NCBI RefSeq assembly: GCF_019668485.1
Contig: NZ_AP024619.1
Coordinates: 619,001 to 683,000 of the forward strand
Length of the DNA stretch: 64,000 bases
Source: Gelria sp. Kuro-4
GTDB taxonomy: Bacteria; Bacillota; DTU030; DUMP01
Direction: 5' to 3'
Positions 35,715 through 49,699 of the stretch are shown here, one piece after another. Position 1 is the first letter of the stretch. Each line of letters starts with the position of its first letter. A program made the translations under genes and the position numbers. A model generated the notes under the pieces. That model had not been told where the DNA came from and ran no database searches. It saw only the letters and a list, made by a program, of their open reading frames with translations.

Positions 35715-38700
35715 TCAGTCCTCCTCAAATCCGTATTGGCTGAACTTAAGCGTGCGGCAGTTTTCGGTAACGGCACGAAAGACGTGCTCAGGAACTCCGT
35801 CTGGAACAGTCGCCTGAATCTCCAAGGTGATTTTCACCTGGGCATCGAGGAGCGAGGCCAGGTGTTGGATCACCTCTTCCGCTACCCGGCCGGCATCGCG
35901 GCCGACCCGGTTTACATCAAGGTTCACTGTTCCGTAGAAGCGCCGCAGCATCTTGGGCGCTGGCTCCGGCTCTGGAAGGCGGGGAACGAAGACGTCGTGA
36001 TTATCGCCAGCCGGTAACCCAGCTTGGCTCTGGCCTGCTGCGTTTTCACCACTTGCTCGGTAAACCACCTGTGGTTTTTCCGCTTCTATTTGCCTCTGCT
36101 CTTCCTCATCGGCGGCAAATTGCCTTCCGGCTGCCTCCGGTTTTACCAAGAAGCCAGACTCATGGACTGAGACTGAGCCGGCTGGATTGCCCAAGTGCAG
36201 ATCCAGGAACCTTCCCGCTTCGGTAACTCCAGCGGCGTAAGCAAAGAACTCTGTGGATGCGAGTCCTTCTTGGATGGTGTTCAAGAGTACCTGTACATCG
36301 CGCAAACGGGGTAGGTAACAGTATTGGGCCATATACTGCCACAGTCGTTTGATGGGGATGTAATCACTATCCCGCCAGAGCCATTTGTCCAGCTCCATCC
36401 TTAGGAGCGCAGGGCCCCACCTAGTGATAAGTTGTTCGTTGGAGCGGAGTTTTCTGGCTGCTTTAGAAACCCAGCTCTCTCCGCCGCCGGGAATCCGCAC
36501 TGCCTCCCAGGTGATGGGGCCGACACCGTCTTGGGTGGGGACAAGCAACCAGGTGTAGGCCTCCTTGATTCGTAAATCTACGGTTTCATCACTGCGTTGC
36601 ATACTTTCTTTGGCTTGTTTCCGCTGGTGGGCATCCAGGTTCAGAGCATCTTCATCTTCTACGATGGATTTCCAGGCCAGGTATTTACGGCTTTCGTTCA
36701 CTAGGCTGGCATAACCATCAGCATCGGGAGAAACAAAGACGAGCATGTTACGGTAGAGCCTGGGAGAGGTGCCGCGGTGGATGAGGATATCTTCGGCGGC
36801 AACTATCGCCGGGCTTTTCTCATCGCCGGGCTTATGGGTGTACCCCGGACCCAAGACTACCAGCCGCGCCTCTTGATCATCCGGTACATCGAGGGAGCAT
36901 GACGGGCAGGTATGAACGGCGGCGAAGTCGGCCCGTTCACGCACCCTTCTTAGCCGTGTCTCAAGTTCAAGGTCGATATCATCCTGGGTGACCTGTTGGG
37001 CACGTTCTTCCATAGTCCGGCGCAGGTTAGGCTGCAGGTCGTACCAGTAGCGTTGGTTGCTGCTGTAGAGATGGGTAAGCTTGTCACCCAGGTGTCCCAG
37101 CGCATCGTTGAACACCGCCACTTGTTCGCCCGGCTGAATGACACCCAGCCTTATGCGCACATCTTGAATTCCGCGCACGCGTTGCTCGCGCACGGAGGGC
37201 GCGCTGCCGAGAAAAATGGCCCGCGCCACCCGCCGGGCCGCCATCCAGCGGCCAAAGCGGGGGTTTTGCCTATCAATCTGGTACGGGAGAGAGCGAGGAC
37301 CGTCTACGTTACTTTCTACTACTGCATTCCAACCCTCACGCAGGTAGCGGGTGAGTTCCTCGCGCACCGTGGTGTTGTCCAAGGAAATGGAACCCGGCAT
37401 TATGAGGAGACTGGAATCCTGCCGCACCCACAGGTCATGGATTACCGCCGCCATCAGCCGTAGGACACCACGGGTCCTCTGGAAGCGTTCGAGCGTAGCC
37501 CAATCACCATACAAACGGTCAAACACTTCCGGGTGAATGGGGTAGCAGGCCTTTAATCGCTCGAAGTAGGACAGTTCCTTGGACTCGATGGGAAAGTCCG
37601 GTCCACCGTCGCGATACATCTCGCTAAAGGCGCGGCATACTTCCAACTGCCTGGACAGGTCCTGAACTGGGAGGAAAAGCCGCCGCCGCACAATCTCGAA
37701 GCCTTCCTCAGCCCCTACCGGCTTCCAAATCGCTTCCATACGGCCAAAGGTGTGCTCCAGCGCAGCCAGCGCAGCCTGTCCGGCTTCGCCTCCGATTTCA
37801 ATGTTGGACTCAGGAATGGAGGCCACAATCAAGCTGTTCTTACTTGCCCGCGCGGCCTCCGTAAGTTCCTGAACAAAACTTAGGACGGCATCGAAAGTGC
37901 CGGCTACCAGCTTTTCGGAAGCACCGTACAGCTTTCGGGCGTACGCTACCAGCTCATCTATCAAGATCACGCACGGCCCGCAGGCATCTAAGAGTTCAGT
38001 GAGGGTCTCAGATCCTGGTGGGACGGAAGCCTTGTCTGCTTCTCGGACCAGCTCATACAGTTCCTGTTGGCCAGCCTGTTCCGCCAGCTGTGCGGCCATC
38101 TCGCCCCACAGGGTCCGGATGGTGATGCCGGGGAAGGTGGGCGGCCGGCGAACCTTAGAAGGGTTGAGGGCCGTACCCACCAGCACTGCCACTTTGGCCT
38201 TGGGCTGCTCGTCCACGTCTGCCTTCGCCAAGACGGCGCGCACGTTAGGGAGCTTGTCCACTGGAACCTTCCCACGTAGTAAGTGATAAAGGGCCAGCAT
38301 GCTGTGGGTCTTGCCGCCGCCGAAGGCGGTCTTGAGTTGAATGACCGGTTCACCGCCGCACCCGGTGACCCGCCGCACGGCCTGAACCAAGAGGCCCTCC
38401 ATGCCTTCGGTAATATACGTGCGGCCGAAGAACTCCACCGGATCCTGGTACTCTACCTGGGCAGTTCCCCGCACTACTTGAGCCAAGTCGGCGGCAAACT
38501 CGGCCTGTTGGTAACGGCCTTGCGCTACGTCCGGGTGCGGTTCCACCACGAGTCGCCAGGGTGGTAAACCGACGCGCGGTGAAAGAGGCAAAACGTCCGT
38601 TGACCTCTGGTCAAGAGGAACATCGCTGCTTCTCTTGTCATTCGTGACTACAGTGGAAGGGCCCACCGTACCGTAGCGAATCTGGCGCGCCAAAGCCCGG

Positions 38701-39116
38701 ATGGCCTCGGTGGACTCGGCATCAATTTTTTCCACCAGGCGTGCCATGGTGTCCAGCGCGCGCCAGGCATCCTCGTCCGACACCGCACCGCTGCCTTTAT
38801 GCGCCCACTTGTTGCGTGTGGTGATGAGTTCTTTCACCCAGTTGCGGTGCTCCCGGCTCAGCTCAACGCGGAAGACATCGTTCCAGTGCAGGTCGATGAG
38901 AATTAAACAACGCAGGCTATCCAAAGAATCCACCAAGACGCCCCAGTCACCGAGATCAGGCAGGTTACGTCGTTGGTTGTCCGAGAGTACTTCGAGTACT
39001 CCCCGGCGCCACCAGTCCGTACGGAAATGTGTCTCCAGTTGCTGGCAGACGTAGGGTGCGAGAATTTCCGTTAATATCTCGAAACCTTTGGTGATAAGTT
39101 GGTAGTTGTCGGCCAC
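35715..39116 (-). CDS. HEPN (Swt1-type) + DUF499 AAA-type ATPase
   Basis: 1133 residues from GTG 39116 (GAGGAGGGGG upstream), 1 base after the methyltransferase stop. N-terminus: a Swt1-like HEPN domain with R-N-K-W-A-H at 101-106, which fits the R-x(4)-H RNase motif, followed by SDEDAWRALDTMARLVEKID. Then DUF499: Walker A LKTAFGGGKTHSML (about 255-268), Walker B CVILIDELVAYAR (about 375), RQDSSLLIMPGSISLD, a C-P-S-C zinc pair and a C-terminal beta domain RFYGTVNLDVNRVGRDAGRV. DUF499 proteins recur in predicted defence loci next to DUF1156 methyltransferases. RNase activity is inferred. Confidence 0.88.
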   Translation of the reverse strand: MADNYQLITKGFEILTEILAPYVCQQLETHFRTDWWRRGVLEVLSDNQRRNLPDLGDWGVLVDSLDSLRCLILIDLHWNDVFRVELSREHRNWVKELITTRNKWAHKGSGAVSDEDAWRALDTMARLVEKIDAESTEAIRALARQIRYGTVGPSTVVTNDKRSSDVPLDQRSTDVLPLSPRVGLPPWRLVVEPHPDVAQGRYQQAEFAADLAQVVRGTAQVEYQDPVEFFGRTYITEGMEGLLVQAVRRVTGCGGEPVIQLKTAFGGGKTHSMLALYHLLRGKVPVDKLPNVRAVLAKADVDEQPKAKVAVLVGTALNPSKVRRPPTFPGITIRTLWGEMAAQLAEQAGQQELYELVREADKASVPPGSETLTELLDACGPCVILIDELVAYARKLYGASEKLVAGTFDAVLSFVQELTEAARASKNSLIVASIPESNIEIGGEAGQAALAALEHTFGRMEAIWKPVGAEEGFEIVRRRLFLPVQDLSRQLEVCRAFSEMYRDGGPDFPIESKELSYFERLKACYPIHPEVFDRLYGDWATLERFQRTRGVLRLMAAVIHDLWVRQDSSLLIMPGSISLDNTTVREELTRYLREGWNAVVESNVDGPRSLPYQIDRQNPRFGRWMAARRVARAIFLGSAPSVREQRVRGIQDVRIRLGVIQPGEQVAVFNDALGHLGDKLTHLYSSNQRYWYDLQPNLRRTMEERAQQVTQDDIDLELETRLRRVRERADFAAVHTCPSCSLDVPDDQEARLVVLGPGYTHKPGDEKSPAIVAAEDILIHRGTSPRLYRNMLVFVSPDADGYASLVNESRKYLAWKSIVEDEDALNLDAHQRKQAKESMQRSDETVDLRIKEAYTWLLVPTQDGVGPITWEAVRIPGGGESWVSKAARKLRSNEQLITRWGPALLRMELDKWLWRDSDYIPIKRLWQYMAQYCYLPRLRDVQVLLNTIQEGLASTEFFAYAAGVTEAGRFLDLHLGNPAGSVSVHESGFLVKPEAAGRQFAADEEEQRQIEAEKPQVVYRASGENAAGQSQAGLPAGDNHDVFVPRLPEPEPAPKMLRRFYGTVNLDVNRVGRDAGRVAEEVIQHLASLLDAQVKITLEIQATVPDGVPEHVFRAVTENCRTLKFSQYGFEED

Positions 39117-39117
39117 T

Positions 39118-41937
39118 CTACTCCCCCTCCTCGGCAAGAAAACCTAACTGTACCGTTGGTGCGGCGGCGATCGCCGCCGCCTTTTCCTGGATTGCCGGCC
39201 AAGAAACCACCAGGGTGTTGTAGGCCAGTGCTTCTTCCGTCCAGCCGTGGCGTTCTGCTGTGGTGTAGAGGCGGTAGGCCAGCGCCTTGCAGGCTTCGCT
39301 TCGTGCGGTGCCTAGGTCCAGGCTTAGCCTCGCCGTCTTCTCCTCGCCACCGGCCTGGAGGCGGCGCACCAAGTGCTGGGTACAAAGCCAGACGCTCAAG
39401 CCATGGTGCAGCGTCGGCTTCCAGGCCGGATCGAGTCCTGCGCGGGGAAGCAAAGACACTTTTCCCTTGGCTGCCTGGAGCACTCCCTGCTCCACCAATC
39501 GGTCTACGGTAGTATTCTTGGCCCGTGCCAGCACGTCCGCCTCGCCATACGGGGCCTCTTGTAGGCCGTACTGCTCGTACCAGGCCAGGCAGAAGCGGGT
39601 ATCGGCGTCCAGGTCACCTTCCTGAACGGCGAAGAAGGCATCCAGTTCCTGATTGATAATCTGCAATGCCGTCCGCACCGGCATGGGTGTGCCGTCGGCC
39701 TCGAGCACCTTGGAATAACGGGAGAAGACGGCCATGCCTGGGCCGATGGCTGCCTGCGCCAGGTCCACGGGCGCGATGTTGCCCTCCTGTAGCTTCTTCA
39801 GTGCTAAGGGTAGTTCGCGCCGCAGGGCCGCAAGGAACTCCCGGCGCGTGGCCGGCGGCACGTCAGACGGGCGCGGACGGCAGACGAGGACAATGGAAGA
39901 AGCGAGAGCATTGGTGCCGTTGGCCACAGGGCGGTTGCTCATTTCACTGCGCATGGGCCAGGTTCCGGTTATGGTGAATTGGGCCCTCAGTAACCCTTCA
40001 AGCATGGTCTCCCAGCCAGTTGACGCCACACGGGGATCTTCATTGCCTTCGTTCGCGTCATCGGTGTCCGCCTCGGTTTGCCTGAAGGCATAGTAGACGG
40101 TTACAGGAAAGTCAGCGTTGCCGGCCTTCCTCATATGAGCAAAAGCCTGTCCCAGCCCACCTTCAAAAAACTGCCGTGCCTTATTCCTATCTCCCCCGAA
40201 ACGGTAGGGAGTAGCCACTAACTCCCCGGTCTTAGGCACAAGCAAAGTGTTGAATAAGTCCGGGTAGACTTCGCGCAAAGACCGGCGCAGCCAAACGTAG
40301 AAGAAATCGCTGAGATCGGCATAACCGATATTGTCGTAGTAAGGTGGGTCGGTAGATACCACGGGAGCCGTGACGCCGTTAATACCAGCGGTAGCGTCGC
40401 GCTGACTGCATGCGCCGGGTGCGGTAGCAGGTAGCCCCGCTATGACTTCAGAAACCCAGTCAACCGCGCCCAGGAAATTTCCTGTGGATGAACTGAAGGG
40501 ATTGGTTTCAGCAAAGTCCCAGGTCATCGGGATGGCTTGACGGGCGAAGGTATTTCGGATATTGTCACGAGTTACATCCCAAGTTGCTATAGTAGAGCTC
40601 CTATCTGCCAGGCGATCAATGCACAAACCCAGGTATGTTGCTACCGCGTCGGCATATGCCGTGGCACCCGTGCCGCCGGCAGCAAGGGTAATACCATCGT
40701 CGGGCATACCAGCGACGACCCCATCCCGGCGCACACTCTCCCAGGTTTCTTCCACCAAATCACTGAAGGTAGCAAGGGCAACCAACTGACGGTGGGTGAA
40801 AAGGTCTCTGAAAGTCTGCATACCGTAATTTGGTGTCTTGAAGTCCCTTGGATTGTGAGGCAACTCCATCTCAGGCCTCCACTTCGGCTTCGCTTCTTCA
40901 GCGGCCCTCATGTGCTCCTCGTTTGCCGGCAAATACACCCGCCCGTGCGGGCCCTCGGCCACAATGGCCATGAGCTGCGCGCCCATGCGGCCGGCGCGGC
41001 CTTCACTGCGAATGTAGTCGAAGGGTACTGGGGTACCACAGCAAATGCAGGTAGCGCCACGGCGGTTCACTGTGCCCTCCAGCGGCTTACCTTTTCCCGT
41101 CTTGACTTCAAAGCGAACCCGCTGGGACATGGAATCTGGAGTCGGTTCCACCCACGCCTCTTTCCCACGCTTCTTCGAAAGCCAAAACTTACTAGCCAAT
41201 GGCATCTCTGTCCCGCAGGCCGGGTTGGGACACTTTACGGTCCGTGCCCAGAGCCAGGCGATTACGGTGGCTTCGCCCCCGCCGTATTCGGGGGGCAGCT
41301 TCACCTTCGGGTACAAATGCCCGATGCGCTGCTCCGCTTCGTCCCGCATCCACTGCCCGTAGTAGCGCACGTCTTCGGCCAGGCCCGCGGCACCGGGCCA
41401 CTCCACCTGGTGCCCGATCTTACGCCGTGCCTCCGGGTTCACAGGTGGGCGGCCGGCGAATTTGGGCGGAATCTCAATTAAAGCTTTGGTAATTAACACC
41501 GCCACCGGGTTAAGGTCACCGGCATGCGCCTCCAGACCCAACCTCTGGGCTTCGAGGGGAATGGACCCGCCCCCACAGAAGGGGTCGAGCACTGGCGGCG
41601 GATTGCCGCCGGTGGACTTTAGAATCTCCGCCCTTGCCTTAGCCAGCACCTCTTCGTTATTCGAGTTCTCCCACTTCACTAGTTCCTCGATAAGGCGGAA
41701 GAGACGTTGCCGCTCGGCTTTCTGTGCTTCTTCCGTAGGGAACTCGTCGGGGCGGCTGGAGGGGTCATCTACCAACGAGGCGAAAAGAACTGCCCGGCAG
41801 GCGGCAAGCGGTTTGCGAGACCACCAAAGGTGGAGCGTGGACGGATGCCCGTGGCGGATTGATTTTTCCCGGGCCGACTCTTTGTTTATGGCCTCAAGGG
41901 GCAGGGCTACTTCTATGAGCTTCTTGTGCGTTGTCAT
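39118..41937 (-). CDS. DUF1156 DNA adenine methyltransferase
   Basis: 939 residues. N-terminal DUF1156 (LIEVALPLEAINKESAREKS, HPSTLHLWWSRKPLAACRAV). SAM-binding motif I DPFCGGGSIPLEA (118-130) and GDLNPVAVLI; catalytic motif IV STDPPYYDNIGYADL (about 525-540), the D-P-P-Y type that methylates the N6 of adenine (N4 of cytosine is possible). A zinc ribbon CPNPACG ... CICCG lies between. ATG with AGGGAGG 11 bases upstream. Probably protects self DNA from the nuclease parts of the array. Confidence 0.92.
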   Translation of the reverse strand: MTTHKKLIEVALPLEAINKESAREKSIRHGHPSTLHLWWSRKPLAACRAVLFASLVDDPSSRPDEFPTEEAQKAERQRLFRLIEELVKWENSNNEEVLAKARAEILKSTGGNPPPVLDPFCGGGSIPLEAQRLGLEAHAGDLNPVAVLITKALIEIPPKFAGRPPVNPEARRKIGHQVEWPGAAGLAEDVRYYGQWMRDEAEQRIGHLYPKVKLPPEYGGGEATVIAWLWARTVKCPNPACGTEMPLASKFWLSKKRGKEAWVEPTPDSMSQRVRFEVKTGKGKPLEGTVNRRGATCICCGTPVPFDYIRSEGRAGRMGAQLMAIVAEGPHGRVYLPANEEHMRAAEEAKPKWRPEMELPHNPRDFKTPNYGMQTFRDLFTHRQLVALATFSDLVEETWESVRRDGVVAGMPDDGITLAAGGTGATAYADAVATYLGLCIDRLADRSSTIATWDVTRDNIRNTFARQAIPMTWDFAETNPFSSSTGNFLGAVDWVSEVIAGLPATAPGACSQRDATAGINGVTAPVVSTDPPYYDNIGYADLSDFFYVWLRRSLREVYPDLFNTLLVPKTGELVATPYRFGGDRNKARQFFEGGLGQAFAHMRKAGNADFPVTVYYAFRQTEADTDDANEGNEDPRVASTGWETMLEGLLRAQFTITGTWPMRSEMSNRPVANGTNALASSIVLVCRPRPSDVPPATRREFLAALRRELPLALKKLQEGNIAPVDLAQAAIGPGMAVFSRYSKVLEADGTPMPVRTALQIINQELDAFFAVQEGDLDADTRFCLAWYEQYGLQEAPYGEADVLARAKNTTVDRLVEQGVLQAAKGKVSLLPRAGLDPAWKPTLHHGLSVWLCTQHLVRRLQAGGEEKTARLSLDLGTARSEACKALAYRLYTTAERHGWTEEALAYNTLVVSWPAIQEKAAAIAAAPTVQLGFLAEEGE

Positions 41938-41990: not shown

Positions 41991-44900
41991 CTACCCCTTG
42001 CCAATAAGCTCTCTTACATCGTAGTTGACGCTGGTGACGGCAAAATCCGGCTCCCGCCGGAAGGGGCAGGGGACATAAATGGGCCGGCCTTGCTCTCCGT
42101 CTACCTCGACAATGGCCAGGATGTAGTCGTCCGGTTTGTTGAGGGCGGTCAGGATCTCGTTCTTGGTCACGGTAACGGTGGTAGCGCCTTTTCTCCGCCC
42201 TTTTACCTCGATAAAGCGCAGTTTTCCGGTGCCTGGTACGCGCGACTCGATGTCGTACCCGCACTTTTCAGCGCTGACGTCACACGGCTCATAACCCAGG
42301 CGCCTCTCCTCGGCCATTACGGCCGCCATGGCTATGCGTTCCACCTCGCGGGTTTCTAAAGCAAACATAGCCGGGGAGGTTTGCGCACCCTTCAGCCGGG
42401 CGATCAGGCCCTGGGGAACAATGAGCGCACTGCCGATCACCACCGGTGCCAGCGGTGCCAGGTGCCGTTCCTGTTCAAGCTCAGCCATGCGTTTCTCCAA
42501 GCGAGCGGTCAGCTCATCGGCGCGCTGGGACGCCTTGGCCGAGTTAATACGCGCATTGACTTTGCCCGCCTCTTCCTGGGCCTTAAGCTCAGCCGCCCGG
42601 TGGTCCCAATAGGCGATCTCCTTAGAGAGACGGTCCTTGACGGCCGCCATGGTCTTGGTTACCAGTTCTTCTCGACGGCTCTTGATTGCCTGCAGGTGGC
42701 TAGGGACGAGCTCCTTAATGGCATAAGCTGTGGCTGCAGCCTCCAGGTCCCGGCTCAACCAGCTTTTTTCGAGTACAGGCTGGACGAGTAGGCGTTCTTC
42801 TTCACTCAGCGCTCGGTAATCCAGATAGGGCGCGTACCCGGCTGAGTGCGCTTTACCCTCAGAGTCTACCTCCACAAACTGCAGCTGGCGGGAGGCCACC
42901 CGGCGGTTGCCGGCTTTATCCAGGCGGCCATCTTGTATGGTGTGTTCGATGTAAAAGAGGGCTCTGACCTCTTCACCCGGATCGCTGGGATCCAGCAACA
43001 CGGCTCCCTGTTTGAGCAGTTCGCGGTAACGCTCGAGAATTAGATCAATGGTGGCGTCCAGGAGGGGATGACCGGGACAGAGAAAGGCCGCCAGAGGCTT
43101 ACCGCTTACCGTGATTAGTTCCTTCTCAAAGGTAACCCGTTCGTAGCGGGGGAGTACCGGCTCGCCGGTACCGATAAGGCGGTCCCGGTTCCGTATCGCC
43201 AGTGGCACATGGGTGATCTCATAGCGTTTGGGTTCGCGCTCGCGGATGCTGCCGCCGAGCAGGGTGAAGGCCTTCATGAAGAACGAGGCGATAAAGTGCG
43301 GCTGCAGCCGCCGGGCCTCCAGACGCTCCATTTCCTCGCGGATCTCCTGGACACGGCGCACGTCCATGCTATCCCGCACCAGGGCGCGCTCCTCCAGGAG
43401 CCGGCGCAGGTGGTTGCGGTCGAAGGCGTTATCCACCACTCGGTGGAGGCGCGCACGCACCTCGGGCCGCTCACCGTAACGGATGGCCTCAAGAAGTAGG
43501 TCGCGCAACGGCCGGTTATCGAAGGTCACTCTACCCAGGACGTCAAACACCCGGCCACCTAAAGCCCTGCGCTCCTCTTCCAGCTTAGAAAAGAGGCGGT
43601 GGAAAACCTCACCCTCCCGTGTTTCCGCCGCCACCAGATTCCACAGGTGACAAACCTCGTTTTGGCCGATACGGTGGATGCGGCCGAAGCGCTGTTCCAG
43701 CCGATTCGGATTCCAAGGCAGGTCGTAGTTGACCATCAGGTGGGCACGCTGCAGGTTGATACCTTCACCGGCGGCATCGGTGGCTACGAGAATCATAACT
43801 TCCTTATCCTGTGAGAAGGCCTCTTGTGCCTTCCGCCGCTCTTCACGGCCCATGCCGCCCTGAATGGTAACCACAGCTTCACCCTTGCCGAGAAGGCTGC
43901 GGATGCGCTCGGCCAGGTAATTCAAGGTATCGCGGTGCTCCGTAAAGATGACCAGCTTGCGGCGGGTACCGGAAGCGTCGAACATCTCCGCGTTGTTCTG
44001 TAAGAGTTTGGAGAGCTCATCCCATTTCCGATCTGTTCCACTGGCTCGCAACTGATAAGCCTGTCTTTCCAAGCGCCTAAGTGTTGCGATTTCCGCTTCC
44101 AATTCCGCAATGGTCCGGGCCGCCGTGGCCTGATCGACTACCGTCTCCTCGGTTTCCTCCAGTTCGGCACCGGGTGCATCTTCCAGATCCTCGATATCGT
44201 CCAGGGACAAGGTCTGCGCTGCTTGGACCCGAGCTCCCCGCCTAAGGAGCTTTTCTTCTTGCAAACGTTCCTCCAGACGCAGACGGCGACGCCGAAGAGA
44301 CTGGTAAATGGCCTCGGGCGAGGAGGCCAAGCGCCGCTGCAGTATGGTCAGGGCAAAGCCCACGGTACCTTTGTGGCCTTCATTCTCCAGCGCGTCGGCA
44401 CGGTTGAACTCCTCGCGCACGTACTCGGTGACCTCCTTGTAGAGGGCGGCCTCAGCGTCGGAAAGGCTGTAGTTCACCGTGTAAGCAATGCGCTCCGGGA
44501 AGAGCGGCGTGCCGTCGAAGCGGTACAGTTCTTCCTTGACTAACCGACGCATCAGATCAGAGGCATCCACCGTATGGACGCCGTCCCGAAAACGCCCCTC
44601 GAACCGATCGCCATCGAGAAGGGCCATAAAGAGCTGGAAGTCTTCCTCTTTGCCGTTGTGGGGAGTAGCGGTAAGTAAGAGGAAATGGCGGGTAATGCGG
44701 GACAGCAGTTGGCCCAAGCGGTAACGCTTGGTGTACTTGACCTCACCGCCGAAAAAACTGGCTGACATTTTATGGGCCTCGTCGCAGACGATCAGGTCCC
44801 AATCGGTCTGTTCCAGCTTGGCTTGGAGGTCTTCGTTGCGCGCGAGCTTATCCAGGCGGGCAATGCAGAGCGGCAACTCCAAGAAAATATTGCCGGTGTG

Positions 44901-45470
44901 CGCTGCTTCAATTCGATCGTTGGTGAGAATCTCAAAGGGCAGGTGAAAGCGCTGACTCATTTCATCCTGCCACTGTTCGGCTAGATTGCCAGGACAGACA
45001 ATGAGACACCGGTGCAGGTCGCCCCGCAGCACCAGCTCTTTGATAAAGAGGCCGGTCATAATGGTCTTACCGGCGCCGGGGTCGTCGGCCAAGAGGAAAC
45101 GCAGCGGCTGTCGGCTGAGCATTTCGCCGTAAACGGCTGTTATCTGGTGAGGCAGTGGCTCTACAAGGGAAGTATGTACCGCCAAGTACGGGTCGAATAA
45201 GTAGCCCAAGCGGATACGATACGCCTCGGAAACCAGCCGGAGAAGCTCGCCGTCGGCAGCAAAGCTCCACAGGCGACCCTCAGTGACAATTTCAAGGGCG
45301 GGCTCATTGTCACGATAAAGCAGTTGGCTGCCCAGGCGCCCGGCAGTATCTTTATAAGTAAGGTCAATAACAGAGTCCCCATACCATTTAACGTCGACTA
45401 CCGTCACCGCGCGGTCCGGCAGTACTCCCCTAACTGTGGCACCCTGGGTCAAATCTTCCAGACGGGCCAT
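41991..45470 (-). CDS. SNF2-family helicase with C-terminal DUF3883
   Basis: 1159 residues. SF2/SNF2 motor: motif I LLADDPGAGKTIMTG (about 127-140), DEAH box DLIVCDEAHKM (about 228), TATPHN, then helicase C domain VATDAAGEGINLQRA and PWNPNRLEQRFGRIHRIGQ (about 590-625). The last 110 residues are DUF3883, a restriction-endonuclease-like fold: YDIESRVPGTGKLRFIEVKG with D ... E-V-K. Similar in layout to DrmD of DISARM. ATG with GAGGGGG upstream; 53 bases to the methyltransferase. Confidence 0.92.
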   Translation of the reverse strand: MARLEDLTQGATVRGVLPDRAVTVVDVKWYGDSVIDLTYKDTAGRLGSQLLYRDNEPALEIVTEGRLWSFAADGELLRLVSEAYRIRLGYLFDPYLAVHTSLVEPLPHQITAVYGEMLSRQPLRFLLADDPGAGKTIMTGLFIKELVLRGDLHRCLIVCPGNLAEQWQDEMSQRFHLPFEILTNDRIEAAHTGNIFLELPLCIARLDKLARNEDLQAKLEQTDWDLIVCDEAHKMSASFFGGEVKYTKRYRLGQLLSRITRHFLLLTATPHNGKEEDFQLFMALLDGDRFEGRFRDGVHTVDASDLMRRLVKEELYRFDGTPLFPERIAYTVNYSLSDAEAALYKEVTEYVREEFNRADALENEGHKGTVGFALTILQRRLASSPEAIYQSLRRRRLRLEERLQEEKLLRRGARVQAAQTLSLDDIEDLEDAPGAELEETEETVVDQATAARTIAELEAEIATLRRLERQAYQLRASGTDRKWDELSKLLQNNAEMFDASGTRRKLVIFTEHRDTLNYLAERIRSLLGKGEAVVTIQGGMGREERRKAQEAFSQDKEVMILVATDAAGEGINLQRAHLMVNYDLPWNPNRLEQRFGRIHRIGQNEVCHLWNLVAAETREGEVFHRLFSKLEEERRALGGRVFDVLGRVTFDNRPLRDLLLEAIRYGERPEVRARLHRVVDNAFDRNHLRRLLEERALVRDSMDVRRVQEIREEMERLEARRLQPHFIASFFMKAFTLLGGSIREREPKRYEITHVPLAIRNRDRLIGTGEPVLPRYERVTFEKELITVSGKPLAAFLCPGHPLLDATIDLILERYRELLKQGAVLLDPSDPGEEVRALFYIEHTIQDGRLDKAGNRRVASRQLQFVEVDSEGKAHSAGYAPYLDYRALSEEERLLVQPVLEKSWLSRDLEAAATAYAIKELVPSHLQAIKSRREELVTKTMAAVKDRLSKEIAYWDHRAAELKAQEEAGKVNARINSAKASQRADELTARLEKRMAELEQERHLAPLAPVVIGSALIVPQGLIARLKGAQTSPAMFALETREVERIAMAAVMAEERRLGYEPCDVSAEKCGYDIESRVPGTGKLRFIEVKGRRKGATTVTVTKNEILTALNKPDDYILAIVEVDGEQGRPIYVPCPFRREPDFAVTSVNYDVRELIGKG

Positions 45471-45513: not shown

Positions 45514-47949
45514 TTATCCCTTGTTCATCATCTCAACGACATATTCCGGTCTTTGCCTAATGACACTACCCGGGACACGGTGTGGGGCTGTGGCGCCTTC
45601 GTTCCAGATCTCCAAGCCGTCGGTAGTTATTTGCGGTCGGACTCGTATGTTCCGGCCCAAGAGGTGTAATTCCCAGCGACTGTCACCGGTGTCTACTACT
45701 TTGTACTTTATGCCCATTACCCTTAGTGCTTCTACCAGTCGTCGTTCTGTCTCCCGTTTCAGTCGCAGTTCGTCAATGGTTTGTGCTGTCAGGAGGGCTT
45801 CCAAAGTGGTGGTGATAAAGTCAAACCGGCGCCGCAATGGGTTGGTTATGGGTTTAGGGAGCTCCTGCCAACTATCGGGTAGCAGGCTTATTTTGTAATA
45901 AAGCCTTTCCCCATCGCCATGCAGGGGACGCAGCTCAGTAATCTGCGGAAGATCTTTCTCATGGACCACGGTAGTTTCTCCTGTCTGGGCAAACTGTTTA
46001 ATACACCCATCTGCAAAGAACGCCACGTACTCAAAACCAAGCCTGGCAGCGGAGAACTTGTCAACAGGGATGTGGTAGTAACCTACGCGACGAGCAAACG
46101 CCAGACGTTCGGGCCGCTTGTCGCGGCCGAGTGTCCCAACGAGGACCGGGTTGTTCCGATACCGCCTTCCCCAGAAAACATCGTGGTCCCGCGGAAAGAT
46201 GGCATGGTCCATATGGGCCACGTTGGGCCACTCAAGCAGCTTTCTCAGGAAAGCTTCGACTAAGTCCGTAGCCCCAGGCAAGAAAGGGAGGGCCCCGATG
46301 CCCACTTTCTCAAGGCTGCGAAAGAAGTGGTGCTGCACGAATTCACCGCGCCAAGGGAAAAGAATACACGCGCCTAGCGCGTCCCGGGTATACACCTGGG
46401 TAGAGGGGTCGCCGGCCAGGAAGGCATCGCGGTATCTGTGCATAGTATTGACGTCCTCTTCCTTTGGCCCCGGTGCACTGTACCTTTTTACATAGTCCGG
46501 CGTTGCATCAAGCCTATACTTAGCGTCTAGGATGTAACGATGGTGCCCGCCCGGCGTTTTACGGTCTATCGTTAGTAGCATATCCGGCTGTTGGGGTGTG
46601 GTTGGCGATTGAATGTCGGGATAGGCATTGTAACCGAGCTCGATGGTTGCTCCATCCGGTGCCTTATAGGTTACGCAGCTGGCTCTTCCTTTCTTTAGTA
46701 CTAACGCAACACCCGTGCTCTCAACCCGGATGATGTCTTGCGACTGCAACCGGCAGTAATGCGCCAGGATTTCCCTGAGCCTCAGGAAACACCAGTACTC
46801 ATAAAGCTCATGAATTGATTTCAGCCCCACCCGCAAAGCCGCGCCCTTTATGTTTAAACCCCGCAGAAGAAGAAGGTGGGCACGAAAAACTTCTCGATAC
46901 CCGGGACCGAACTGCAAGACCAGGGACGGACTGTAGCCGGGATGCCAGGTTCCTACATTTCTCAAGAATTTCAACTGCAGTAGCCGTTTTATCCTGGTCG
47001 CAAACTCGGCCAATACCTCATTCACAGCCGGGTTAGGGTAAGGTGAGCCCTGGTATTTCTGTTCCAGGCGCTTTAGATGCTTGAGGGTTTGTTCCAGGAC
47101 CCAGCGTACGAAGCGATTTTCGGGAGTATCGTACGTGACCTGCTTTTCGGCGGCGGGGAACTTCCAAGCGGAATCTGGTCGAGAGGGTTTTCCGTTAATT
47201 GCTTCCCACTGCTCAGGATGGTGTCTCAACCAGCGCAAAGCTGACTTACCAGGTCGCCGAACTTGGTCTATCCGGCGGAAATGCTCGTTAACCGCTAGAG
47301 AATGGTGCGGGTGATTTGCAACCGTGCGAACTGCCACTTCCAGGTCTTTAAGCAAGTATCGCAAGGTAGAGATCCACTCAACATCAGTAGGAGAGTGGCC
47401 GCTCTTCTGCGAGGAAACCGGGCGAAAAGTCTTAGTCAAGAAGTTAAAAACCAGGCCTAACACCTCAGAGTAGACTTCCTGAACCATTTGCTCGTAGTCC
47501 AAGCGATAATCAATTTTCGTGGGAAAGACCTCGACAGAGATACTGAGCACCTGGCGCTTGTCCCATAAAAAGACGAATTCCGAACTGCCCACTTCACTGC
47601 CAAAGTTGATGACGGCTGAGTAAACCTTGCCTTGACGATCCACAGGACGGACAGCAGCTCTTAATAGCGGGTTTTCGTGCCAAACGCCGAACTGGCCGGC
47701 CTTTTTTGTTGCTATGATTAGTTCGTAATTCTGTTGCTCAAAAAAGAGCGGTGGGTGCGCTTGCACTGAAAGCTGTTCTCCCAGCTCGCTGTGGTAGATT
47801 TCCAGGTGGTTGTACCTACCACGGATAACTGTTTTAGCCACGGCTCCTGCCTGCAAAGCTGGAACATACTGCAACACCTCTTCGGGTTTCGGACCCTTGA
47901 GGACGAGATCGAAGCAGTCGGTTTCCACGGTGACAAGGTTGGCACTCAT
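45514..47949 (-). CDS. DUF2357 protein with PD-(D/E)xK nuclease domain (McrC-like)
   Basis: 811 residues from ATG 47949, 7 bases after the McrB-like stop. The N-terminal half is the DUF2357 region (YELIIATKKAGQFGVWHENP, with ENRFVRWVLEQTLKHL about 280). The C-terminal half carries the nuclease core: QPDMLLTIDRKTPGGHHRYI then LDAKYRLD (D ... D-A-K, about 500-525). This arrangement is the usual partner of McrB-type GTPases where classical McrC is absent. Expected job: DNA cleavage powered by the McrB ring. Confidence 0.85.
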   Translation of the reverse strand: MSANLVTVETDCFDLVLKGPKPEEVLQYVPALQAGAVAKTVIRGRYNHLEIYHSELGEQLSVQAHPPLFFEQQNYELIIATKKAGQFGVWHENPLLRAAVRPVDRQGKVYSAVINFGSEVGSSEFVFLWDKRQVLSISVEVFPTKIDYRLDYEQMVQEVYSEVLGLVFNFLTKTFRPVSSQKSGHSPTDVEWISTLRYLLKDLEVAVRTVANHPHHSLAVNEHFRRIDQVRRPGKSALRWLRHHPEQWEAINGKPSRPDSAWKFPAAEKQVTYDTPENRFVRWVLEQTLKHLKRLEQKYQGSPYPNPAVNEVLAEFATRIKRLLQLKFLRNVGTWHPGYSPSLVLQFGPGYREVFRAHLLLLRGLNIKGAALRVGLKSIHELYEYWCFLRLREILAHYCRLQSQDIIRVESTGVALVLKKGRASCVTYKAPDGATIELGYNAYPDIQSPTTPQQPDMLLTIDRKTPGGHHRYILDAKYRLDATPDYVKRYSAPGPKEEDVNTMHRYRDAFLAGDPSTQVYTRDALGACILFPWRGEFVQHHFFRSLEKVGIGALPFLPGATDLVEAFLRKLLEWPNVAHMDHAIFPRDHDVFWGRRYRNNPVLVGTLGRDKRPERLAFARRVGYYHIPVDKFSAARLGFEYVAFFADGCIKQFAQTGETTVVHEKDLPQITELRPLHGDGERLYYKISLLPDSWQELPKPITNPLRRRFDFITTTLEALLTAQTIDELRLKRETERRLVEALRVMGIKYKVVDTGDSRWELHLLGRNIRVRPQITTDGLEIWNEGATAPHRVPGSVIRQRPEYVVEMMNKG

Positions 47950-47956
47950 ATGCGTT

Positions 47957-49699
47957 TCACATCCAGTACGATGTGTATCCTTCTTCTTCGAAACGGCGAA
48001 GCATAACGCCGATTTTCCGGGCCGTCCTTGGGTAGCGTGCATCTTCGGGGGGTTCGGCGACCTTGGCTACCAGATCGGGATCGTCTTCAGAAACCGTGAC
48101 ACCGGTTGTCCAATTCCACAGACCAACGAGAACCTGCCGAGTGGTGCTTGAACTACCCTGTACCCGAGGAAGAATCTTGCTCTGGAGTTGCATGTCGAAG
48201 CTCAGGTCATATTCCAACCCTGCTTCCCGCGCATGCAAAAGGAATAAACAGACCTCATCCCGCACGCGGTAACCAACCTGAAAATAACCTGGTTCGAGGA
48301 TGGCATTTACCTGCTCAAGAGAAGCGATGGTCTGCTCGAACAAGGCCGGCGCTTGGTCATAGAACTCTGGCAGGCGACAAAACACTGGACGCAGGGGGTG
48401 CCAATCCAACGGCTCACTGGCCACCGGCTCCGTGCCAGGACCTGCATGATAGCTTAGATTGACATGGTTAAACTCAAACACGTTAGCCCGATCCAAGACT
48501 TTACGGCTGAACGGATGGGTGGTTTCGTCCATGTTGACAGTACCGATAAAAAACACGTTATCGGAAACGTAGACCTTCGACCAAGGAGCTTCTGTAAATT
48601 CCGCCAGCACTGGCGGGGTTACAACCTTTCCATGCTGACGGTTACGCTTCTCAATTATGCTTAGGAACTCAGCAAAGTAATGCTCTACTCGGGCCAGGTT
48701 CATTTCGTCAAGACAAATAAAGTAGGGCAGGTCCGGGTGAGCGTTGGCATCCCTCAGAATCTCCAACAAAGGGCCCGGCCGAAAGTGACCCTGTAGGTCC
48801 CGGTAGCCTAAAAGGTCTGTACTGTCACTCCAATCAGGTCGAACGGCAATTGTATATTCGTGTGCGCCAAACTGGTGCGCCAGCAGCTCAACCAAGCGGG
48901 TCTTCCCGGTGCCTGAGATACCGGCCAAGAGCACAAAAGGCTTGCTTTTTAGGGATACACAGAAGGCTGCGAACTCTTCCGGTGGGTAGAAGAACCCCTG
49001 CCTCGTAATGCGTTGGTGTGCTTGCGTAATCAGTTGCTCCAAAGGAAGCTCACCTGGCCCTTCCACCTTGTTCGGAGGCAGATCAATGGTAGGAGCAGAG
49101 GTCGCAGCGGTGCTTGTTTCGATCGCGTACGCGCGGTACACGCGAAGGAGGGCTTCTAAATCCTTTGCCAGGCTGTCATCCGTGGGTAGAGCTGTACGTT
49201 CGTACGCTTTGTAGGCTATGGTTGAATCCACGTATCTGGCACCAGTTCCCTTAACTGCTCCAAGATTGATGTCCCAGTTCAGCTGAAAGCCAGGTAAACT
49301 GCGTATGTCTGGACGCTGCCGAAGAGCCTCAGCTCGGCTGCGCAGGGCTGGCTTGGCTTCCTTGGCGCCCAGCTGGTCATACACCTCTGTAACTCCCTGA
49401 TTAAGAGTCAGGTAGACGCGCGTCATATCGGCTGCAAACAAAAACACCACGTACACGCCGTTCTGCATCGAAGGAGCAACCCGTGAATCTAAAAAGGCGA
49501 TCCAAGGGATGGTGGCCCAGTTGCCTTGGCCGAGCGAGCCCTTGACTTTTAGCTCGGGATAATTACGCACGGCAGGAAGGGCTTTTAGCTCCTCTTCAAT
49601 CTGGTGGAGGGTGGTATGCAGTGGATGCTTCCCAAAACTTTGCTCCTGGGCTCCAACATAATTTTGCATTAGGTGTTCTAGTAGCGCCGCTAATCCCAC
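47957..49699 (-). CDS. McrB-like GTPase with DUF3578 N-terminal domain
   Basis: 580 residues from GTG 49699 (AGGAAGGCG 6 bases upstream). N-terminal DUF3578/MrcB domain (about 10-180: GNWATIPWIAFLDSRVAPSM, VYVVFLFAADMTRVYLTLNQ). Then the McrB-type AAA+ motor: P-loop LLAGISGTGKTRLVELLA (about 265), Walker B LPYFICLDEMNLARVEHYFA, and FFIGTVNMDETTHPFSRKVL (sensor, M-N-x-D-E-T). McrB rings bind modified DNA with the N-terminal domain and move it to the nuclease partner. First gene of the array. Confidence 0.92.
   Translation of the reverse strand: MGLAALLEHLMQNYVGAQEQSFGKHPLHTTLHQIEEELKALPAVRNYPELKVKGSLGQGNWATIPWIAFLDSRVAPSMQNGVYVVFLFAADMTRVYLTLNQGVTEVYDQLGAKEAKPALRSRAEALRQRPDIRSLPGFQLNWDINLGAVKGTGARYVDSTIAYKAYERTALPTDDSLAKDLEALLRVYRAYAIETSTAATSAPTIDLPPNKVEGPGELPLEQLITQAHQRITRQGFFYPPEEFAAFCVSLKSKPFVLLAGISGTGKTRLVELLAHQFGAHEYTIAVRPDWSDSTDLLGYRDLQGHFRPGPLLEILRDANAHPDLPYFICLDEMNLARVEHYFAEFLSIIEKRNRQHGKVVTPPVLAEFTEAPWSKVYVSDNVFFIGTVNMDETTHPFSRKVLDRANVFEFNHVNLSYHAGPGTEPVASEPLDWHPLRPVFCRLPEFYDQAPALFEQTIASLEQVNAILEPGYFQVGYRVRDEVCLFLLHAREAGLEYDLSFDMQLQSKILPRVQGSSSTTRQVLVGLWNWTTGVTVSEDDPDLVAKVAEPPEDARYPRTARKIGVMLRRFEEEGYTSYWM

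Follow-up and report, generated by a model that had tools for sequence, protein, structure and literature searches.

The window analysed here, 64,000 nucleotides of Gelria sp. Kuro-4 DNA, carries six genes on the same strand encoding, upstream first, an McrB-like protein, a DUF2357-PDDEXK_7 protein, HmaA, HmaB, HmaC and Mrr. The genes, together with the parts of HmaA and HmaC that are relevant to the argument, are arranged as follows.

47957-49699, minus strand: McrB-like AAA protein (MrcB_N + AAA_5; Pfam)
45514 to about 47949, minus strand: DUF2357-PDDEXK_7 protein (Pfam)
41991..45470, minus strand: HmaA, SNF2 helicase with a C-terminal NOV_C/DUF3883 PD-(D/E)XK nuclease (PADLOC, 1760 bits)
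42075-42344, minus strand: nuclease part of HmaA, DIES...EVK (Pfam NOV_C, E 6e-24)
39118..41937, minus strand: HmaB, DUF1156 DNA amino-methyltransferase with an ATG start and the motifs LDPFCGGG and DPPY (PADLOC, 1221 bits; Pfam DUF1156)
35715..39116, minus strand: HmaC, HEPN plus DUF499/BrxC-like AAA+ ATPase, 1133 amino acids, GTG start (PADLOC, Foldseek)
38721..39089, minus strand: HEPN_Swt1 domain, HmaC residues 10-132 (Pfam PF18731, AF2 model, weak PDB matches)
38799..38816, minus strand: R-x4-H motif RNKWAH, with HmaC R101 and H106 (sequence and conservation)
38565..38669, minus strand: HEPN-ATPase linker, about residues 150-184 (low pLDDT at 151-170; the HmaC model match begins at 184)
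38307..38321, minus strand: Walker A GGGKT, residues 266-270 (invariant in 50 aligned HmaC proteins)
37953..37964, minus strand: Walker B LIDE, residues 385-388 (D387 and E388 invariant)
35721..35948, minus strand: C-terminal beta-alpha-beta-alpha-beta segment, residues 1057-1132 (AF2, moderate to low pLDDT)
34612 to about 35520, minus strand: type IV restriction enzyme of the Mrr family, the next gene after HmaC (Pfam)

The Hma genes are separated by 53 bases (HmaA-HmaB) and by 1 base (HmaB-HmaC): HmaB ends at 39118 and the GTG start of HmaC, preceded by a GAGG-rich stretch, lies at 39116, which is the spacing that the first-pass annotation had given between a DNA methyltransferase and the HEPN protein. 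Its suggestion of a defence-system setting was also substantiated, PADLOC detecting HmaA, HmaB and HmaC as strong full-length matches in the helicase-methylase-ATPase order of the described Hma system (PMC8565338). HmaC scored 1134 bits over residues 184 to 1132; because the PADLOC model begins at residue 184, it omits the HEPN part, which therefore passes unremarked in the Hma description. HmaA is intact and, in aligned relatives, conserved in its Walker A, DEAH box and motif VI, as well as in the nuclease motifs GYDIES and FIEVKG. HmaB likewise has intact and conserved DPFCGGG and DPPY motifs, which are of the amino-methyltransferase kind. This type of methylase has been assigned to N6-adenine in one study (PMC12839542) and to m5C in another (PMC8565338); judged from sequence, the motifs of HmaB are in line with the former assignment and not with the m5C label.

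The McrB-like and DUF2357-PDDEXK_7 genes form an McrBC-like pair (45514-49699) directly upstream of HmaA. As an Hma component this pair was rejected: it was seen in none of the relatives' loci, with flanks reaching about 3 kb past HmaA, and, when positions were compared in the 38 genomes of the phylum with DUF2357, it lies beside an HmaC match only in the window's own. The Mrr gene downstream of HmaC recurs in only two of the related loci, L019 and L020 (36% identity). On this comparison, the McrBC-like and Mrr neighbours are not conserved parts of Hma. A DUF2357 relative of 71% identity is present in another genome, G178, apart from its HmaC-like match.

We conclude that the locus is almost certainly a complete Hma, or Type-1 BREX-related (BR), system with a HEPN-bearing HmaC. 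It is an ordinary member, both the HEPN-DUF499 fusion and the surrounding system being already known. The fusion, with an SNF2-DUF3883 helicase, was described in 2013 by Anantharaman et al. (PMC3710099), Payne et al. gave the three-gene system the name Hma in 2021 (PMC8565338), and Rakesh and Krishnan described it in 2026 as Type-1 BR, reporting the HEPN fusion in 1370 taxa (PMC12839542). Since fusion and system have been described since 2013 and in more than 1000 species, the find is sound but ordinary; the first-pass annotation had missed that the architecture and a functional proposal for it were already published. With Type-1 BR the locus shares the HEPN-DUF499 ATPase with its BrxC-like core, the DUF1156 methylase and the SNF2 helicase with the motifs of an active C-terminal PD-(D/E)XK nuclease, and there is no substantive difference between the two, the McrBC-like and Mrr genes adjoining the system here. 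A TUDOR domain, which Type-1 BR features at the HmaA N-terminus, gave no match to Pfam profiles. The Ava_2192-type HEPN-AAA+ restriction-modification operons (PMC3710099) have in common with this locus a Swt1/Abi2-family HEPN-DUF499 protein, an SNF2-DUF3883 helicase and restriction-modification components, but their ATPase was likened to McrB, whereas the HmaC model matches BrxC. Among the six genes scanned, Type-2 BR was rejected for the absence of a DUF3780 gene and an HKD-helicase, DISARM for that of DrmA, DrmB (DUF1998) and DrmC (PLD), and BREX proper for that of PglZ and BrxA/BrxB; the similarity of HmaA to DrmD is weaker than its HmaA score.

Translation of 39116..35715 (minus strand) places RNKWAH at residues 101-106 of HmaC, as had been read at first pass, and the description of a Swt1-type HEPN fused to a DUF499 ATPase held as well. 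Residues 10-132 are matched by the entire Pfam HEPN_Swt1 model (PF18731) with E = 1.2e-27 and 96.9 bits, where the cut-off is 27.5; residues 307-726 match Pfam DUF499. The span originally noted, 38700-39116, covers the domain, the Pfam match proper being 38721-39089. Structure prediction, which had been put forward as a check of the HEPN fold, gave a divided answer. Modelled alone by AF2, the domain forms a confident, all-helical bundle (mean pLDDT 90.5), but its best PDB match in Foldseek, the C-terminal domain of yeast Swt1, was not significant (probability 0.85, TM 0.41-0.47, E 0.35). AbiF was also among the Foldseek matches, weak and family-appropriate; a PDB search with the HEPN as a single sequence found no relative, and a PDB profile search reached an E of about 0.6 at best. 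Because the PDB fold matches do not go below an E of 0.35, the fold assignment rests mainly on the Pfam match. The AbiF/AbiD HEPN RNases belong to the same Abi2/Swt1 grouping as the HmaC HEPN, but they occur outside such operons and are associated with the ncRNA RF03085. An Rfam scan of window positions 30000-52000 at curated thresholds detected only a tRNA, and no AbiF-type ncRNA.

RNKWAH had been said to fit the R-x(4)-H motif of active HEPN RNases, and its presence is no accident of sequence. Across 75 aligned HEPNs (that of the query plus those of 74 homologous reading frames in related loci; 184 columns), R101 is conserved in 74 and so is H106, the sole exception being the locus L048, with W and Q at those positions. 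Both residues are within the five least variable columns of the 184, D66 and D122 ranking just ahead, while mean column identity is 39% in the HEPN alignment against 50% for full-length HmaC. Such retention of the motif in a domain much of which varies is what one would expect of an active catalytic site. In the actinobacterial HmaC proteins (L063-L078), the first half of the HEPN is too divergent for BLAST and matches begin at about residue 82; R-x4-H is retained in these proteins, and L063 gives a strong HEPN_Swt1 match (E 8.4e-30). The N-terminal part of HmaC is thus, on sequence grounds, a HEPN domain, which probably is active and cuts RNA. A rival reading sees no toxin in the domain: it might chiefly bind RNA or mediate dimerisation, or it might cleave phage transcripts alone. 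Within the Swt1 family some HEPNs, including that of eukaryotic Swt1, are predicted to be inactive binders that have lost the motif (PMC3710099). In the present alignment the conservation of D66, D122, R119, E96 and W78 is similar to that of R and H; structure may therefore account for part of the constraint, and the conservation data may be compatible with a structural cause for R and H themselves. However, loss of the motif is what marks the predicted binders, and here each of the two residues persists in all sequences but one; a non-toxic role appears quite improbable to us.

The ATPase part of HmaC points to BrxC. The full-length AF2 model (pLDDT 84.5) matched BrxC structures 9zll/9zdx in Foldseek with a probability of 1.00 and an E of about 1e-7. 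BrxC of BREX, whose AAA+/wHTH fold is similar to that of HmaC, forms ATP-dependent dimers, with higher oligomers promoted by DNA (PMC13326643). It differs from HmaC in that no HEPN is described for it, and its partners BrxB and PglZ are both absent from this operon. In the model, the linker near residues 151-170 is predicted to be flexible, and the C-terminal segment is a candidate RRM/ferredoxin-like domain, such as has been reported for DUF499 ATPases (PMC12839542). Sensing of invading DNA, one of two activators of the HEPN considered at first pass, is plausible in our analysis because HmaC models like BrxC, which binds and oligomerises on DNA. The HEPN would not be the sole effector, since HmaA of the same operon carries a DNA nuclease, a point that the first-pass annotation had overlooked.

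HmaC relatives came from 80 loci found in one genome-collection scan, a sample that favours HEPN-bearing relatives because the search patterns included the HEPN peptide THFRTDWW, and from a phylum sample drawn with the PADLOC HmaC model, without the HEPN. The HmaA-HmaB-HmaC order recurs in most sufficiently long loci of the 80, some with inserted genes. HmaB and HmaC are spaced by 0-60 bp or overlap shortly in 49 of the 63 measurable loci; HmaB was not found adjoining HmaC in L032, L038, L044 and L048. One clade has an additional HmaB-like gene between HmaB and HmaC; it is divergent (33-36% to HmaB) and perhaps provides a second specificity.

L021:7572-9983: second HmaB-like gene, DUF1156 found in this copy
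L028:7738-9993: second HmaB-like gene
L047:7769-9988: second HmaB-like gene

Cargo located between Hma genes comprises Schlafen-AlbA proteins (L033:8072-9577 and L083:6468-8171), a GmrSD N-domain protein (L064:3556-5421) and an EAD7-WD40 protein (L040:6643-9084).

The HEPN is found in 14 of the 15 phylum-sample matches above 1000 bits, the window's own included, with L082 as the exception. In the core HmaC clade, 84 of 92 rows are HEPN-bearing and 5 of the remainder are cut by contig ends; members of the HEPN clade come from many phyla. More divergent DUF499 proteins are without a HEPN, the stretch that precedes their ATPase being too short to accommodate it. From trees built with FastTree (131 rows) and IQ-TREE (37 rows), we infer that the HEPN marks a single HmaC clade, with one gain at its base and two losses, one in the sister pair L026 and L082 (99%) and one in L041. 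L058 was also scored as HEPN-less, but its HEPN is encoded in another reading frame that overlaps, probably as a result of frameshifts. An AbiEii/OLD-like AAA_21/AAA_15 ATPase is carried as cargo in the HEPN-less locus L041 (L041:1892-3091).

HEPN-less L082 has intact HmaA, HmaB and HmaC, showing that the Hma core does not need the HEPN. In L026 (L026:2-4297), HmaB, from about residue 386 at the contig start to residue 892, runs in-frame into the HmaC ATPase and the HEPN is missing. As this is a metagenome assembly, the fusion may be an assembly error; the same genome also has a separate HEPN-bearing HmaC with the motif RNRWAH. Co-occurrence of the HEPN with the HmaA nuclease is uninformative, because nearly every locus of the HEPN clade in which the end of HmaA can be read has the nuclease. 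Rakesh and Krishnan proposed that the HEPN is a backup, a last-resort suicide RNase (PMC12839542), triggered only when HmaA restriction fails or is inhibited. The complete but HEPN-less set of L082 and the divergent DUF499 systems without a HEPN fit such a role. Yet the core clade nearly always keeps the HEPN with both catalytic residues, beyond what would be expected of a dispensable add-on, in a sample that leans towards HEPN-bearing loci, and we consider a purely backup function rather unlikely.

The other activator considered at first pass was loss of modification, in which the end of HmaB methylation would unleash the HEPN in a toxin-antitoxin-like manner. The tight coupling of HmaB and HmaC speaks for it, and so does L048 (L048:1-6967), where HmaC follows HmaA directly, HmaB being missing from the locus, and the HEPN lacks both catalytic residues (R to W, H to Q). 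However, L048 is one case only, and its HmaA retains the nuclease motif. Its genome has other HmaB genes, and its branch is long (0.9-1.0), which general decay would produce; decay therefore explains this locus equally well. We regard a toxin-antitoxin-like release as improbable; the present data are compatible with either trigger, unmodified foreign DNA or loss of self-modification.

Taken together, we favour, with somewhat better than even confidence, the reading of this region as a complete Hma locus whose HEPN is an RNase activated by assembly; for its mechanistic part, taken separately, the chances are in our view about even. The active site of HEPN RNases is generally formed by two domains together. 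Because two domains are normally needed, we propose activation by clustering, and the position of the HEPN on the flexible arm of a DNA-clustering ATPase suggests a switch. HmaB would methylate self DNA, and HmaC, by analogy with BrxC, would bind and assemble on unmodified DNA as a BrxC/ORC-like AAA+ ATPase, while HmaA would translocate along and cut the unmodified DNA. The N-terminal HEPN would be kept off in resting HmaC; clustering of HmaC on DNA would then pair the HEPNs and turn on the RNase, and the activated HEPN may cleave RNA, stopping the infection by dormancy or death. What we infer here is every step beyond a BrxC-like ATPase with a conserved HEPN, and our literature search found no experiment on any HEPN-DUF499 protein. 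PMC12839542, citing PMC11232893, credits a reported phage defence to HmaA; this would not require RNA cleavage and counts against our explanation, as do the complete HEPN-less set of L082 and the weak significance of the Foldseek matches to the HEPN. More tentatively, and with some doubt, HmaC might form a ring or filament on unmodified DNA that pairs the HEPNs, making them a regular RNA-cutting arm and not a failsafe, with an evolutionary coupling between HEPN and methylase (joint loss, or an HmaB-HmaC fusion replacing the HEPN).

To the published descriptions our analysis adds the conservation count, the pattern of HEPN gain and loss, the BrxC match of a HEPN-bearing HmaC, and natural variants. 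The latter, HEPN-less L082 and L026 and catalytically dead L048, would offer simple tests of the role of the HEPN. If the HEPN is active, a single polypeptide in the widespread Hma/Type-1 BR systems links the distinction between self and non-self DNA to the destruction of RNA.
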